Assembly: GCF_005049235.1 (NCBI RefSeq)
Contig: NZ_SUMD01000004.1
Span: 248,001 to 312,000 of the forward strand
Source: Rhodococcus oryzae
GTDB taxonomy: Bacteria > Actinomycetota > Actinomycetes > Mycobacteriales > Mycobacteriaceae
Direction of reading: 5' to 3'
DNA: 64,000 nucleotides
Shown here: piece after piece, positions 54,351 to 60,206 of the stretch
Position numbering within the stretch: the stretch's first letter is position 1
Layout of the letters: every line of letters begins with the position of its first letter
Notes under the pieces: model-generated
The model's input: only the letters and a program-made list of their open reading frames with translations
Told to the model about the DNA's origin: nothing
Databases searched by the model: none
Program-made: the position numbers and the translations under genes

Positions 54351-55313
54351 CTAGCCGCCGTACCCGTTCCGCGGCGCGGCCATCGCCTTCGTCAGCCGGC
54401 CGATCGACGCCCCGATCGCCAGTTCGTCCGCGAGTGCCGCGAGCCGCTCCTGGTCCACCGGCGCGACGGGCAACGGGTCCGGACGCGACATCTCGACCGC
54501 CGCGTCGGTGGCCACCCGAACCACCGGCAGCGCGGCGTCGAGATAGTCGGAGGCCGCGGTGAGCTTGGCCCGGATCCCCTTGGCCAGACCGGACTTCGGA
54601 TCGTCGACGGCCGCGCGAAGCGCCTCGACCGACCCGTATTCGAGCAGCAGCGACGAAGCGGTCTTCTCGCCGACTCCCTTGACGCCCGGCAACCCGTCGG
54701 AAGGGTCGCCGCGCAGCAGGGCCAACTCCGCGTATCCGATGCCCGGTCGATCCGCGGGCACGCCGTACTTCTCGGCCACCTCGAGCGGACCGAAGAGTTC
54801 GGCCTTCGACAGGCCGCGCCCGACGTACAGCACCCGCACCGGCACCGGCTCGTCGGCGACGACCTGCAGCAGGTCCCGATCGCCGCTCACCACGACGACC
54901 GTGTCGGCGCGTTCGCGGGCGGCGAGGGTGCCCAGCACGTCGTCTGCCTCGAAGCCCTCGGCACCGGCGGTGGCGATACCGGCCGCGGCCAGCACGTCGA
55001 GGATCATGTCGACCTGCGGCGTCAGCGTGTCCGGCACCTCCTCGACGTCGGGACCGACCTCGGTCTCGACCGCGACGCGATGGGTCTTGTACGAGGGCAC
55101 GGCGTCGACCCGGAACTGCGGGCGCCAGTCCAGATCCAGGCAGACCGCCAGCCGCTCGGGCTGATGCCTGGTGATCAGCGAGGCGACCATGTCGGTGAAT
55201 CCGCGGACCGCGTTGACCGGTCGCCCGTCGCGGGAGGTGAACGATTCGGGGAGCGCGTAGTACGCGCGAAACCACAGGCTCGCGCCATCGAGCAGGAGCA
55301 GGGGGCCAGTCAT
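54351..55313 (-). CDS. 5'-3' exonuclease (FEN/PolI N-terminal type)
   Basis: A 320-residue stand-alone flap/5' nuclease. Motifs: [19 protein letters not shown] (first metal Asp), [26 protein letters not shown] (acidic pair), [12 protein letters not shown] and the helix-hairpin-helix [23 protein letters not shown]. Removes RNA primers or flaps during replication and repair. ATG 55313 is preferred; a Met three codons upstream (55322) is possible. It matches Rv2090 in position next to pepE and is divergent from it, with 37 bp between the starts. Confidence 0.92.
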
Positions 55314-55350
55314 GGCCCTCATCCTGCCAAACCGAACTAACCTGAGTGGC

Positions 55351-56526
55351 ATGAGTTCCCACGGCGGTTCCGCGAGCACCTCATCCGACAGTCCAGAAGC
55401 GCAGGCTCCCGCGCGCTTCCCGACCGCGATCTACGCGGAACGCCTGCGCCGAGCTGCCGAACTCACCGCGGCTGCGGGGCTCGACGCCCTGCTCATCACC
55501 CCGGGTCCGGATCTTCGGTACCTGCTCGGATCCCGGGCGGATTCCTTCGAGCGGCTCACCTGCCTCGTCATCCCCGCCGACGGATCCACTGCCTCCGTGG
55601 TGGTTCCGCGGCTGGAGTTGGCGGCGCTCGGCGATTCGGCGACCGCGGAACTGGGCCTGACCGTGCGGGACTGGGTGGACGGTGTCGACCCGTACGCCTT
55701 GGTCGCGTCGGGGTTGCCCTCGCCGGCACGGACGGCGGTCGCCGACGCGATGCCCGCGCTGCACGTCATCCCGCTGACCTCGGCCTTCGGTGCACCGCCG
55801 GTCCTGGCCACGGACGTGCTCCGCGAACTCCGGATGATCAAGGACCCGGCCGAGATCGACGCGCTGCGACGCGCGGGTGCGGCCATCGACCGGGTGCATG
55901 CCCGGATGGCGGAGTGGCTGCGTCCCGGTCGCACCGAGGCGGAAGTGGCTGCGGACATCGATGCCGCGATCCTCGAGGAGGGCCACACCGCGGCAGAGTT
56001 CATCATCGTCGGGTCCGGTCCACACGGGGCGGACCCGCACCACGAGGTCTCGGATCGGACGATCCGATCGGGGGACGTCGTCGTCGTGGACATCGGCGGT
56101 CCGGTCGAGCCCGGCTACAACTCCGATTCGACCCGCACCTACTGCCTCGGTGAGCCCAGTGCCGAGGTGGCCGCCCAGTTCGCCGTGCTGGAGCGGGCGC
56201 AACGGGCCGCCGTGGACGCGGTTCGGCCCGGCGTCACGGCCGAGTCCGTGGACGCGGCCGCCCGCGACGTGCTGGCCGCGGAGGGGCTCGCGGACGTGTT
56301 CGTGCACCGCACCGGCCACGGCATCGGCCTGTCGGTCCACGAGGAGCCGTACATCGTGGCGGGCAATCGCATCGAGCTCGCCGAGGGCATGGCCTTCAGC
56401 ATCGAACCGGGCATCTACTTCCGCGGCGCCTGGGGCGCGCGGATCGAGGACATCGTGGTGGTCACGGCGGACGGCTGCGAGCCGATGAACTCCCGTCCGC
56501 ACGGACTGACGGTGCTCGGGGGCTGA
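55351..56526 (+). CDS. pepE: M24-family dipeptidase PepE (Xaa-Pro aminopeptidase-like)
   Basis: A 391-residue metallopeptidase. An N-terminal creatinase-like domain ([33 protein letters not shown]) precedes the pita-bread fold. Metal ligands: VVDIGGPV and [11 protein letters not shown] (two Asp), [17 protein letters not shown] (His), [11 protein letters not shown] (Glu) and ARIEDIVVV (Glu). It cleaves short peptides, in keeping with downstream handling of proteasome products, but this link is only positional. It corresponds to Rv2089c, the last gene of the conserved block. Confidence 0.93.
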
Positions 56527-56535
56527 CGGCGCACG

Positions 56536-57762
56536 TCAGAGGCCGAGCGCGGTGACGGCGTTGCCGTGCAGGCCCGCGTGCTGTCGGGAGTAGATCGCGA
56601 TCATCCGCTGGTCGGTGTGTCCGCTCTGGGTCATGATCTGTTCGGCGCTCGCGTCGTTGCGGACCGCCTGGGTCACGAATCCGGCCCGGAGGCTGTGCCC
56701 GCCGAGCAGGGCAACGAACTCCTCGGCGTACCCGGCCCCGACGGCGCGGCGCTTGATCATCGACGCGATCGCCTGTCCGGACAGGGCTTTGGCACCCAGG
56801 CCACCGGTACGGTGCACGGGCCGGAACAACGGCCGGACCTCGGACTCACGGCGCCCGAGTGCGCCGCGGCAACGATGCGTGAGGGGTTCGGTGTCTGGCT
56901 CTGCGAGCAACGCGCTGAGCGCGGGTTTGCCGTCCCGGTCCCACGCGTCCAGCACCTCGCGCCACCGCCAGTAGGCGCATACGGGGCAGGTGATCTCGGC
57001 GGAGCCGTAGGGCAGTGTGACCGTACGTCCCGCCGCGGCTTGGTCGGTCTTCGACCGGCGGATCGTCACATACAGTCCGTCCGCCCGGTGCGGGACGACG
57101 TCGCCGACCGCGAGCCCTGACAGTTCCGACCGCCGCATCGCGCCGGTCAGTCCGAGTAGCAGCAGCGCAGTGTCCCGCCGCTCGGCAGCCCGGTCGGCCC
57201 ACGAGCCGTGTGCGGACTGGGCACGCATGGACTCGACGATGCTGCGGATGTCGGCGGTGAGCAGCGGCTCGCGCCGAACCGGCGGCGTGGCCCTGGTACG
57301 GGCGATACCTCGCAGGATCTCGCGCACGGTGGAGGACTGCCCCGGCTTGGGATGGCCGGCGAGCGAGTGCACCTTGTTGATCGAGGCGACCCAGCGCGTC
57401 ATTGTCGACGACGCGTAGGCGGGTCGGCCGTCCGGCCGCACCTCCGAGGACTTCTCGGTCAGGAACCAGCCGACGAGGTCAGGGGAGGCGGGCAGCGGAT
57501 CCCGGCCGACGCGCGTGCACCAGCGGATGAAGCTGGTCCAGTCACTCAGTTGCGCGGCGCGAGTGTTGGGGGAGACGGATTCGACGCGCAGGCGATGCAT
57601 GGCCGCGGCTGCGTCGACCGGGACCGCGAGCGCTCCGGCCGACGAGTCGCCAGCGGTGAAGGATTCGAGTTCGGCCGCCACGACACAGGACGATACGTGG
57701 CCGAACCGACAGTTCGCGGCCGGCAGCACGATCCGGGGCGCGACATCTCGGCCAACCGTCAC
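56536..57762 (-). CDS. Tyrosine recombinase/integrase
   Basis: A phage/plasmid-type site-specific recombinase. Catalytic residues are visible: Arg in GLTGAMRRSELSGLAVGD, Lys in IRRSKTDQ, HSLRAGF (His-x-x-Arg), SGHTDQRM (His) and IYSRQ (Tyr nucleophile). An N-terminal SAM-like core-binding domain begins around VSPNTRAAQLSDWTSFIRWCTRVGRDPLPASPDLVGWFL, and CPVCAYWRWRE lies in between. The true start is uncertain; the frame is open to 57996, GTG 57762 is used (408 codons), GTG 57681 is possible. It is convergent with pepE (9 bp between stops) and divergent from a coiled-coil protein gene. No tRNA adjoins it. Confidence 0.9.
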   Translation of the reverse strand: MTVGRDVAPRIVLPAANCRFGHVSSCVVAAELESFTAGDSSAGALAVPVDAAAAMHRLRVESVSPNTRAAQLSDWTSFIRWCTRVGRDPLPASPDLVGWFLTEKSSEVRPDGRPAYASSTMTRWVASINKVHSLAGHPKPGQSSTVREILRGIARTRATPPVRREPLLTADIRSIVESMRAQSAHGSWADRAAERRDTALLLLGLTGAMRRSELSGLAVGDVVPHRADGLYVTIRRSKTDQAAAGRTVTLPYGSAEITCPVCAYWRWREVLDAWDRDGKPALSALLAEPDTEPLTHRCRGALGRRESEVRPLFRPVHRTGGLGAKALSGQAIASMIKRRAVGAGYAEEFVALLGGHSLRAGFVTQAVRNDASAEQIMTQSGHTDQRMIAIYSRQHAGLHGNAVTALGL

Positions 57763-57781
57763 ATGACGTAACGGGACCGGG

Positions 57782-57817
57782 GTGTCGGCGTCCGGAACGC
57801 GCTCTGGACGCCGACAC
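57782..57817. repeat. 12-bp perfect inverted repeat (GTGTCGGCGTCC / GGACGCCGACAC)
   Basis: Arms 57782-57793 and 57806-57817 with a 12-nt centre (57794-57805). It lies just upstream of the integrase start. It may be a recombinase core site, a regulator site or a transcription barrier; the sequence does not decide. Confidence 0.6.
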
Positions 57818-58020
57818 GCGGGGCATCTTCGTCGCCACCGCGGCGGTGCGACACTCCGCCGCGAGTCCTCACTCGTCCCGTCACATCGCGGCCGGCCCAC
57901 TTTTCCGAATCCGTTTCTCCGACGGTTCGGTGCACAATTCCGACCCGAAATCCTCTCAGTCGCTAACTCACGATAAGTGGGGATTATGACGATCAAGTGT
58001 CATCGTTTCATTACATACGG

Positions 58021-58048
58021 CGTAACGTAACATGCAACGTAACGTAAC
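58021..58048 (+). repeat. Iteron-like direct repeats: CGTAACGTAAC, six-base spacer ATGCAA, CGTAACGTAAC
   Basis: Two exact 11-bp copies at 58021-58031 and 58038-58048, period 17, each itself two CGTAAC/GTAAC units. They end 18 bp before ATG 58067. Placement is that of an operator or replication-type iteron for the coiled-coil protein encoded next. Confidence 0.8.
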
Positions 58049-58066
58049 TTTAAGGGCGGACGCGCA

Positions 58067-59140
58067 ATGAAAAGGGGAGTGCACGTGAACACCGAGGACG
58101 AGAAGGACGCGGATACCGCCGAGGAACCGAAGGCGCGCCCAGGCCGTCCCCGGCAGTACGCCAGCGACGCAGACCGCGTCAGGGCCTTCCGCTCGCGCCG
58201 GAAGGCCCGCGAGCAGCAGGGCGAACTCGACGCGCTCGCAACCGCGACGCCGGGCGAGGTGGTCGGGGTCCTCGAACGGACACTCGACGACCTCCGAACC
58301 GTCACCGCCAATTCGATCGAGCAGTTCAACGTGTTCGCCCGGCAGATCACCGCCGCCGTGGACAAGCTCAGCGACCCGGACGCGCTCGACGTTGCACTGC
58401 ACCGCGCCACCGTCGAACTCGCGCAGACGAAGGCGAAGTACGAGACGGACCTGGCCGAGCTGCGGACACGGCACGAGGCCGCGGTGGAGGATCGGGCGAA
58501 CGCAGAGGCCACCGTCGACGCGGTCGACGCCGAACTCTCTGCCGCGGTAGAGAATCACCGGCTCGAACTCGAACGACTGTCCGCTGACCACCAGGCCGAG
58601 CTCCGGGATCTGGAGCAGACCCACGCGGCGGAGCTACGAGCCGCGACCGAGCGGGTGGCGGCCGTTGAGGCGGATCGCGACACCCGCCTGTCCGTCGCGG
58701 AGTCCGACCTCGACGATCTGCGCAGCAGGTTCCGCGAGGCGCAGTCCCTGGCGGAGGCGGCCGAACGAAGGGCCGCGTCCGCCGAACAGTCCGCGGCCGT
58801 ATCGGAGCAGCGTGCCGAGCAGGCAGGCGTGGCGGCCGAACAACGCCTCGCGCAGGTCGTCGCCTCGGCCGAGCAACGGATCGCCGACATGCGCGCCGCG
58901 GCCGAACTCGCGGCGAACACTACGGCGGCGACCATCGCGCGGCTCGAGAAGTCCGTCGACCACGAGCGGGCGGCGGCCACCACCGCCCGTGAACGCGCCG
59001 ACACCCTCAGGGACGACCTCGAGCTGGCCCGCCTCGACACCCGCGAGGCGCGCACCGCCGAGGCCGCACTGCGGGAGAAGTTGGACGAGCTGCGCCAGCG
59101 CGCTCGGGAAGGTGAGCCTCCAGAGACCGCGACGACGTGA
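58067..59140 (+). CDS. Coiled-coil protein with basic GRPR-type N-terminus (KfrA-like, plasmid-type DNA-binding)
   Basis: A 357-residue protein. Residues ~28-50 are basic and contain RPGRPRQYASDADRVRAFRSRRKAREQ, an AT-hook-like GRPR followed by an Arg/Lys-rich helix. From about residue 110 to 350 it is a long coiled coil rich in Ala, Glu and Arg (for example AEAAERRAASAEQSAAVSEQRAEQAG). This layout resembles plasmid KfrA-type proteins that bind repeats and form filaments. ATG 58067 is given; GTG 58085 with a GGGGAG site six bases upstream is equally possible. Located downstream of iteron-like repeats and divergent from the integrase. Function is inferred, not known. Confidence 0.72.
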   Translation: MKRGVHVNTEDEKDADTAEEPKARPGRPRQYASDADRVRAFRSRRKAREQQGELDALATATPGEVVGVLERTLDDLRTVTANSIEQFNVFARQITAAVDKLSDPDALDVALHRATVELAQTKAKYETDLAELRTRHEAAVEDRANAEATVDAVDAELSAAVENHRLELERLSADHQAELRDLEQTHAAELRAATERVAAVEADRDTRLSVAESDLDDLRSRFREAQSLAEAAERRAASAEQSAAVSEQRAEQAGVAAEQRLAQVVASAEQRIADMRAAAELAANTTAATIARLEKSVDHERAAATTARERADTLRDDLELARLDTREARTAEAALREKLDELRQRAREGEPPETATT

Positions 59141-59249: not shown

Positions 59250-60206
59250 ATGACTGTTTCCTCACCGACCAGGCAGGGATTCGGATCGATCCGCGCGGGC
59301 GGACTGAACTGGGATTCCTTCCCGCTGCGACTGTTCGCCAAGGGGAACTCACTGTTCTGGGATCCGGCGAACATCGACTTCCGGCGCGACGCCCAGGACT
59401 GGCGCGAGCTCAACAGCGAACAGCAGCGCAGCGCGACCTACCTGTGCACCCAGTTCATCGCGGGTGAGGAGGCCGTCACCGAGGACATCCAGCCGTTCAT
59501 GAAGGCGATGTCCGCGGAGGGGCGGCTCGGCGACGAGATGTACCTGACACAGTTCTGCTTCGAGGAGGCCAAGCACACCGCCGTCTTTCGGCTGTGGATG
59601 GACGCGGTGGGACTGACCGGCGATCTGCATCCCTTCGTCGCGGAGAACCCGTACTACCGGACCCTCTTCTACGAGGAACTCCCCGGCGCTCTCGGTGTCC
59701 TCGAGACCGACCCGAGTCCGGCCAACCAGGTGCGCGCCAGCGTCACCTACAACCACGTGATCGAGGGCAGCCTCGCCTTGACGGGCTATTTCGCCTGGCA
59801 GAAGGTGTGCACCAAGGAGGGGATCCTGCCCGGGATGCAGGAGCTGATCCGCCGGATCGGCGTCGACGAGCGCAGGCACATGGCGTGGGGCACCTTCACC
59901 TGTCGGCGTCACGTCGCCGCCGACGACTCGAACTGGGGCGTCGTGCAGCAGCGGATGACCGAGCTGATGCCGCTCGCGCTCGGCATGATCGACTGGGTCA
60001 ACAAGCAGTTCGAGGTTCAGCCGTTCGGGCTCGACGAACAGGAGTTCATCGACTACGCCGCCGACCGGGCGCAGCGCAGGCTCGTCGCCATCGAGTCGGC
60101 CCGCGGCCGCCCGCTCGAGGAGATCGACGTCGACTACTCGCCCGAGGCACTCGAGGACCAGTTCGGCAGGGAGGACGCGGCCGTCTTCGTCGAGGCCAGC
60201 GAGTGA
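59250..60206 (+). CDS. R2-like ligand-binding oxidase (R2lox)
   Basis: A 318-residue ferritin-fold protein homologous to class I ribonucleotide reductase R2 but of the Mn/Fe R2lox group (Rv0233-like). Metal-ligand positions fit: Glu73, Glu106, His109, Glu172, Glu207 and His210. Val76 and Tyr167 align with the residues that form a Val-Tyr ether cross-link in characterised R2lox. All these counts come from the ATG at 59250, which has AGGAG eight bases upstream. It probably oxidises a fatty-acid-like ligand; the natural substrate is unknown. No catalytic R1 (nrdE) is nearby. Confidence 0.92.

Follow-up and report, generated by a model that had tools for sequence, protein, structure and literature searches.

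Here we examined a 64-kb stretch of the Rhodococcus oryzae genome (the window; contig 26 of the 5.37-Mb genome G000) and identified a 31-bp dif-like core between the divergent genes of a tyrosine recombinase (Rec) and a coiled-coil protein (CC). The core is the strongest element of the locus. It was missed by the first-pass annotation of this DNA, which had correctly recognized the two divergent genes, with the Rec open reading frame (ORF) on the minus strand and the coiled-coil ORF on the plus strand at 58067–59140. Judging from sequence comparisons, we favor, with some confidence, a reading in which Rec, the core, an adjacent cluster of RTTWC repeats, and CC form one chromosomal, clade-specific resolution system that resides in the terminus region beside XerCD-dif. 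What sets the locus apart is that it is single-copy, is shared by all genomes sampled from three genera, and is kept close to dif despite a reshuffled neighborhood.

The core was first seen as a near-invariant block upstream of CC on comparing six genomes of the genus. It occupies positions 57965–57995 of the window on the plus strand, with 12-bp arms on either side of a 7-nt center: the left arm is AACTCACGATAA (57965–57976), the center is GTGGGGA (57977–57983), and the right arm is TTATGACGATCA (57984–57995). Across 25 genomes, the core carries a mean information content of 1.68 bits per column, compared with 0.33 and 0.30 bits in its flanks. The right arm is altered only in G004 and G222. 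The left arm reads TGATCGTCATAA in 14 genomes, 13 of which have a perfect 12-bp inverted repeat, and RACTCRCNATAA in 11 genomes (those of the host's own genus, g1, with the window included, as well as G029, G185/G195, and G054/G110). With its ATAA-N7-TTAT layout, the core is built like a tyrosine-recombinase site and resembles dif sites.

Our sample consisted of 351 family genomes, one per species and mostly drafts; outside the family, we covered a scan of close relatives (6 loci) and collections of plasmids, phages, and viral contigs. For the core, a pattern search was used throughout; for the Rec and CC families, no more than five first-look candidates were scored in most genomes. With up to three mismatches allowed, the core is found exactly once in 25 of the 351 genomes, comprising all six g1 genomes, the single g25 genome, and all 18 g27 genomes. 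It is found in none of the other 326, and a reversed-pattern control also returned zero. No second att-like copy was detected at this threshold in any of the 25 genomes. The core was absent from the plasmids and phages searched, and viral contigs gave no match to exact patterns fitting 15 and 19 of the 25 cores. A Rec ortholog accompanies the core in 24 of the 25 genomes, the exception being G230, which is 75% complete. None of the 326 core-less genomes has a Rec ortholog, and 48 of them have a paralog at E ≤ 1e-90; the two classes were split by an E-value gap, with orthologs at ≤1.9e-171 and the next class at 5.8e-108.

CC is present in all 25 core genomes, and a profile search found CC relatives in 30 of the 351 genomes overall. 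Among 24 CC loci read beyond the host genus, 19 have the core upstream and five do not. These five core-less relatives (loci L072 and L074–L077) belong to the further genomes G063, G133, G194, G265, and G289, and based on a position match, one of them probably sits on plasmid pKNR of R. opacus B4. Another CC relative, at L029:8031-8960 (G003 contig 6, 24 kb), lies beside a gene that appears ParA-like by eye, on a contig that is probably a plasmid.

The core lies upstream of CC at all 25 loci, and in 22 of 24 genomes Rec is divergent from CC with the core between them. The gap from Rec to the core is below 1 kb in six of the 24 genomes (minimum 20 bp) and approximately 2–15 kb in 16, and it reaches 41 kb in G204 and 48 kb in G145. 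The genes scanned in this interval encode a short-chain dehydrogenase, a HAD hydrolase, a LysM protein, a selenium-binding protein, and an M1 peptidase, with sets that differ by clade. A cargo hotspot between Rec and the core was considered and rejected; the gap varies in size, and the scanned genes include ordinary families. A CAGTTTTCG-like element ([GC]TTTT), often GTGCACAGTTTTCG, is located 30–32 nt left of the core ATAA at 16 of the 18 g27 loci (L055–L071, L073). This element is perhaps a promoter or an accessory site.

Recombinase, coiled-coil partner, and repeats

Rec is encoded on the minus strand at 56536–57681 and spans 381 amino acids from GTG 57681, a start that was chosen from the orthologs; the longest form of the ORF is 56536–57996. 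It matches PF00589 at 34.3 bits (cut-off 27.1), and 24 orthologs share 61–92% identity with the window's Rec. Residues R183, K211, H329, R332, H355, and Y364 are invariant in all 24. Among Xer models, Rec scores 27.5 bits for XerS (cut-off 267), 26.8 for XerD (329.6), 23.5 for XerA (220), and 13.4 for XerC (335). These values are far under the model cut-offs, which indicates that Rec is none of XerC/XerD, XerS, or XerA, in a comparison that did not include XerH. The closest solved structure by sequence profile is Cre (5.9e-13), and Rec aligns to TnpS of Tn4651 with 28% identity over 300 columns (BLASTP E 3e-20; hhalign 98.2%). Matches in PHROGs are to integrase families only for Rec, with none for CC. 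A PADLOC search gave no match for Rec and a lone weak match for CC (LmuB, 0.0022), which was not used.

In a phylogenetic tree, the 24 terminus Rec sequences split from nine paralogs with support of 96/93. The g1 and g25 sequences cluster together (100/100), and those of g27 are not resolved as a single clade, in a tree that has no Xer outgroup, places TnpS and one paralog on long branches, and has no species tree beside it. Of 72,556 plasmid records, 225 carry Rec paralogs with less than 60% identity, and 96 of these records bear the name Rhodococcus. Second-copy relatives of Rec (L175:5148-7054, L176:2998-4823, and L028:5775-8010) adjoin another divergent tyrosine recombinase with approximately 27% identity to Rec. 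This paired-recombinase unit contrasts with the single Rec at the terminus, and two of the units are on small contigs of G213. At four g27 loci (L158:5813-9399, L163:5444-9063, L166:3972-7594, and L167:9742-13361), Rec is located 3' of an aminopeptidase-N-type gene with a 4-bp overlap. The one such gene scanned contains Peptidase_M1, and the gene family is found in nine of 21 genomes compared. PepA, the accessory factor at cer, is also an aminopeptidase, and this likeness may be chance.

CC is encoded on the plus strand at 58085–59140 and has 351 amino acids from GTG 58085 (the ORF begins at ATG 58067). Since the orthologs put the starts at GTG 57681 for Rec and GTG 58085 for CC, the spacer measures about 385–403 bp instead of the 304 bp initially assigned. 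In a 24-row alignment, CC shows a conserved basic head around GRPRxYxSxADRVRAxR; it also has a long coiled coil. No recognized domain scored above cut-off, and there is no solved relative by sequence profile. The KfrA_N domain (PF11740) was not detected in the window CC or in three relatives; the earlier description of CC as KfrA-like holds for its architecture only. A tblastn search of whole CC against plasmids returned no match, perhaps owing to the low-complexity filter.

Within the genus, dN/dS is 0.10–0.28 for Rec and 0.20–0.45 for CC, compared with 0.054 and 0.035 for the neighboring genes pepQ and R2lox (one pair each). Rec and CC are thus under selection, though looser than that on housekeeping genes. 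The pairwise identities of Rec and CC are correlated (r = 0.92 over 276 pairs; 0.81 within g27), as would be expected from joint inheritance.

The RTTWC/GWAAY repeat cluster spans 58005–58048 and includes CGTAACGTAAC twice, at 58021–58031 and 58038–58048, with a period of 17 and no further occurrence in the window. These two copies had been noticed before, together with a further CGTAAC near the recombinase, and all were confirmed here, the latter at 57767–57772. Between the core and CC, RTTWC pentamers number 169 over the 25 loci, with 33 expected and a maximum of 48 in 500 mononucleotide shuffles; in this count the trimmed G002 interval is 3 nt with no repeats, and a less trimmed count (14 loci) gave six there. 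In the 144 kb of G000 that were scanned, the tandem repeat 10-mer has no occurrence outside the locus; the 300 kb of terminus scanned in G134 contain two, one of which is at the locus. Similar repeats are visible by eye upstream of all five core-less CC relatives. Because of these repeats and the repeat excess at the locus, the RTTWC repeats are likely CC binding sites, and the cluster is presumed to be the accessory site for CC.

The first-pass annotation also drew attention to a 12-bp perfect inverted repeat with a 12-nt loop (57782–57817; arms 57782–57793 and 57806–57817). The repeat exists, but it has no counterpart in the spacers of five sister genomes, and the window contains approximately 10 perfect inverted repeats of at least 12 bp with a short loop (0–2 in 10 shuffles). 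We therefore judged it to be an ordinary, non-conserved hairpin and rejected it as a crossover site.

Neither flanking gene is part of the system. The left neighbor (55312–56526, plus strand; PF00557) encodes an M24 Xaa-Pro peptidase (pepQ) rather than the pepE originally named, and the right neighbor (59250–60206, plus strand) was confirmed as a gene for an R2-like ligand-binding oxidase (R2lox; NF006199, 604.6 bits, cut-off 286). No tRNA was found in the 64-kb window, in agreement with the initial annotation. None of the 12 neighboring gene products scanned (50.0–64.0 kb) is a transposase; terminal repeats were not searched for. In G001, G002, and G004, a small ORF, a response regulator, and a histidine kinase adjoin Rec (L022:7026-9358 and its L023/L025 counterparts). 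This set is absent from the Rec–pepQ interval of the window.

Position near dif and coexistence with XerCD

We located dif with an actinobacterial pattern, which fits the Frankia dif in the available text of PMC3025954. A match was found in all six genus genomes and in all 19 others (25/25). Weaker matches also occurred in G145, G185, G204, G222, and G230, for which we took the best one. In the 16 genomes whose core and dif map to the same contig, the distance between them is invariably 20–140 kb; the other nine have them on different contigs and are uninformative. In G000–G004, the core and dif are on the same strand, with the core 52–119 kb to one side. Nine g27 genomes have the core on the opposite strand, 84–140 kb from dif, and in G145 and G204 it lies 20–25 kb on the other side of dif, on the same strand. 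Because related genomes are not independent, we counted these as three placements and not sixteen. In G134, which is a single contig, dnaA-like motifs are near 12.5 kb and the core is at 2.77 Mb of 5.27 Mb.

In G000 and G001, the block lies between pepQ and R2lox. In G002, G003, and G004, the two genes are adjacent, with approximately 70–80 bp between their aligned parts, and this position is empty; the block is elsewhere in the terminus region, approximately 28–34 kb away (nearest gene edges). In G005, pepQ and R2lox are approximately 6 kb apart. The first-pass annotation had reasoned that a pair found in every close relative at the same locus, with no empty sites, would belong to the core genome. 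The Rec–CC pair is indeed in all six genomes of the genus, but in differing places and with an empty pepQ–R2lox junction in three of the six. From these comparisons, the block has been re-placed repeatedly, yet it stays near dif.

All 12 genomes checked have an XerD-type match of 327–343 bits (eight of them over the cut-off of 329.6), and all 12 have a second match of 258–271 bits, which we took as XerC. A third XerD-like tyrosine recombinase, at 126–162 bits to TIGR02225, is also found in all 12, at G000:C26:429692-430585 (outside the window) in the host. It lies approximately 3–17 kb from dif in 10 of the 12, at approximately 62 kb in G005 and 75 kb in G002.

Proposed mechanism and competing explanations

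In the mechanism we propose, Rec would bind the two 12-bp arms and exchange strands across the 7-nt center. CC, sitting on the repeats beside the core, would gate the reaction as an accessory protein that permits synapsis only of directly repeated sites on one molecule. Because each genome has a single core copy, two copies would come together only when the chromosome has dimerized or has fused with another molecule bearing the same site. The likely job of the system would therefore be to resolve chromosome dimers or cointegrates in the vicinity of the terminus, in parallel with XerCD-dif and independently of it. Every biochemical step here is inferred from sequence. Of the two readings offered by the first-pass annotation, we favor the second, a chromosomal resolution device in which CC would bind the repeats. 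Control of both promoters by CC, as also suggested there, is unlikely as a general rule because 18 of 24 genomes have approximately 2–48 kb between Rec and the core.

Several observations weigh against a resolution system of this kind. With dif in 25/25 genomes and XerD/XerC-type recombinases in 12/12, a second dimer-resolution system looks redundant. The core is 20–140 kb off dif, not at dif, and the GC skew across a 300-kb stretch of the G134 terminus is noisy, with no clean switch at either the core or dif. The left arm comes in two discrete forms, so the arms are not equivalent in 11 of the 25 genomes. The divergent layout is not essential, as Rec in G145 and G204 lies beyond CC and faces it in convergent orientation. 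In addition, CC evolves faster than the neighboring housekeeping genes, and BLASTP and hhalign gave no meaningful match between CC and TnpT, the helper protein of a comparable transposon system described below.

The 31-bp palindrome could instead be an operator, bound by a regulator (perhaps Rec) that controls CC with no present strand exchange. Its invariable position upstream of CC would suit such a role, palindromic operators are common, and no recombination has been seen. However, the distance from ATAA to the CC head codons ranges from 117 to 494 bp while the core sequence hardly changes, and the five core-less CC loci keep similar repeats, so the core is unneeded as a CC operator. Rec also accompanies the core at distances of up to 48 kb and retains all six catalytic residues, and the layout of the core is that of a recombinase site. 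We consider an operator unlikely. The locus is still less likely to be what is left of a domesticated integrative element, with an integrase and its attachment site that are now functionless or kept for the occasional integration of incoming DNA. Such an origin would agree with the Rec paralogs on plasmids and with the movement of the block within the terminus region. It would also agree with the flanks of the core in own-genus pairs, where the 80 bp to the left fail to align better than chance in six of seven pairs (z ≤2.4; G000–G001 5.1) and the right side aligns (z 3.7–12.8); in seven g27 pairs, both sides align. Conversely, there is one core copy per genome with no second att at up to three mismatches, no counterpart in the plasmids and phages searched or, for exact patterns fitting 15 and 19 of the 25 cores, in viral contigs, and a terminus Rec that forms its own group apart from the paralogs. 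The system is also present throughout the 25 genomes sampled from three genera, with dN/dS well below 1. The single-copy site and the clade-wide presence, including the pair in all six genus genomes, also speak against the minimal integrating element initially suggested. An integrative element was rejected as the principal explanation, and a mobile element is unlikely.

It is also conceivable, though very improbable, that CC is the primary component, as a terminus organizer or partition protein (MatP-like or centromere-binding) for which the repeats are the loading site, with Rec and the core secondary. The terminus location and the long coiled coil are consistent with this, as are the CC relative on a plasmid and the similar repeats before core-less CC genes. 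However, no dispersed tandem 10-mer array is present in the 300 kb of G134 or the 144 kb of G000 examined, and MatP-like dispersed sites were rejected on this basis. Moreover, the core and Rec are retained no less strictly than CC.

Chromosomes are usually pictured as having a single dedicated dimer-resolution system. Extending the resolution reading, we tentatively suggest that Rhodococcus-type bacteria may possess two independent chromosomal resolution systems: XerCD-dif, and a Rec/core system with CC as gatekeeper, captured from plasmid or transposon resolvases and fixed in the terminus region for FtsK-free resolution of dimers or chromosome–plasmid cointegrates. If true, this would mean that resolution of the transposon or plasmid type can become domesticated to maintain chromosomes, and one would then have to ask what these bacteria need both systems for. 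The sites are short and defined, hence the idea is testable in ordinary laboratory hosts. Among the literature matches listed, in a search that did not extend to subscription papers, there was no account of a second dif-like system in Rhodococcus.

Comparison with known systems

KfrA proteins of plasmids have a basic DNA-binding head, a long coiled coil, and repeats upstream of their own gene. CC shares all three features without a detected KfrA_N domain. In the Cre-loxP system of phage P1, the site has symmetric arms and a short center, and Cre needs no accessory protein. Among solved structures, Cre comes closest to Rec by sequence profile, but the Rec site is conserved together with a partner gene and repeats.

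Like the core, the sites of XerCD-dif, XerS-difSL, and XerH-difH occur once per chromosome in the terminus region and have short inverted arms around a small center (12-7-12 for the core). The available text of PMC5357621 places the XerS and XerH sites near their recombinase genes, as seen here. The Rec system differs from all three in adding a dedicated coiled-coil partner and a repeat cluster, and in its location 20–140 kb from dif. Furthermore, XerS and XerH replace XerCD-dif, whereas Rec coexists with XerD/XerC-type recombinases and dif. XerCD-cer/psi of plasmids, with PepA, ArgR, or ArcA, combines a core with an accessory site, which is the model proposed for Rec and CC. In the available text of PMC5357621, DNA-binding proteins at the accessory site next to the core impose resolution only. 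In contrast to cer and psi, the Rec/CC system is chromosomal and has its own recombinase and an unrelated accessory protein.

The first-pass annotation knew of no described system with this pairing, but TnpS/TnpT-rst of the Tn4651-type Tn3 transposons (pWW0) has the arrangement, as outlined in the available text of PMC7157771 and PMC4619425. In these transposons, a tyrosine recombinase is divergent from a coiled-coil helper, as with Rec and CC, and the tnpS–tnpT interval contains a TnpS core and a separate TnpT-bound accessory palindrome (PMC4619425). A core palindrome with separate accessory repeats in the spacer is thus common to both systems, and genes may intervene between recombinase and helper in the transposons as well (PMC4619425, same text). 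The helpers are not recognizably homologous, since TnpT has KfrA_N (2.6e-26) and CC is without it. TnpS/TnpT-rst is part of a Tn3-family transposon with tnpA, while the 12 genes scanned around Rec and CC include no transposase. Rec/CC is also distinguished by its fixation in the sampled genomes of three genera, its single copy, its place near the terminus, and its dif-like core. By analogy, TnpS/TnpT-rst and XerCD-cer with PepA/ArgR would be the closest working models for how Rec, the core, the repeats, and CC might operate together.

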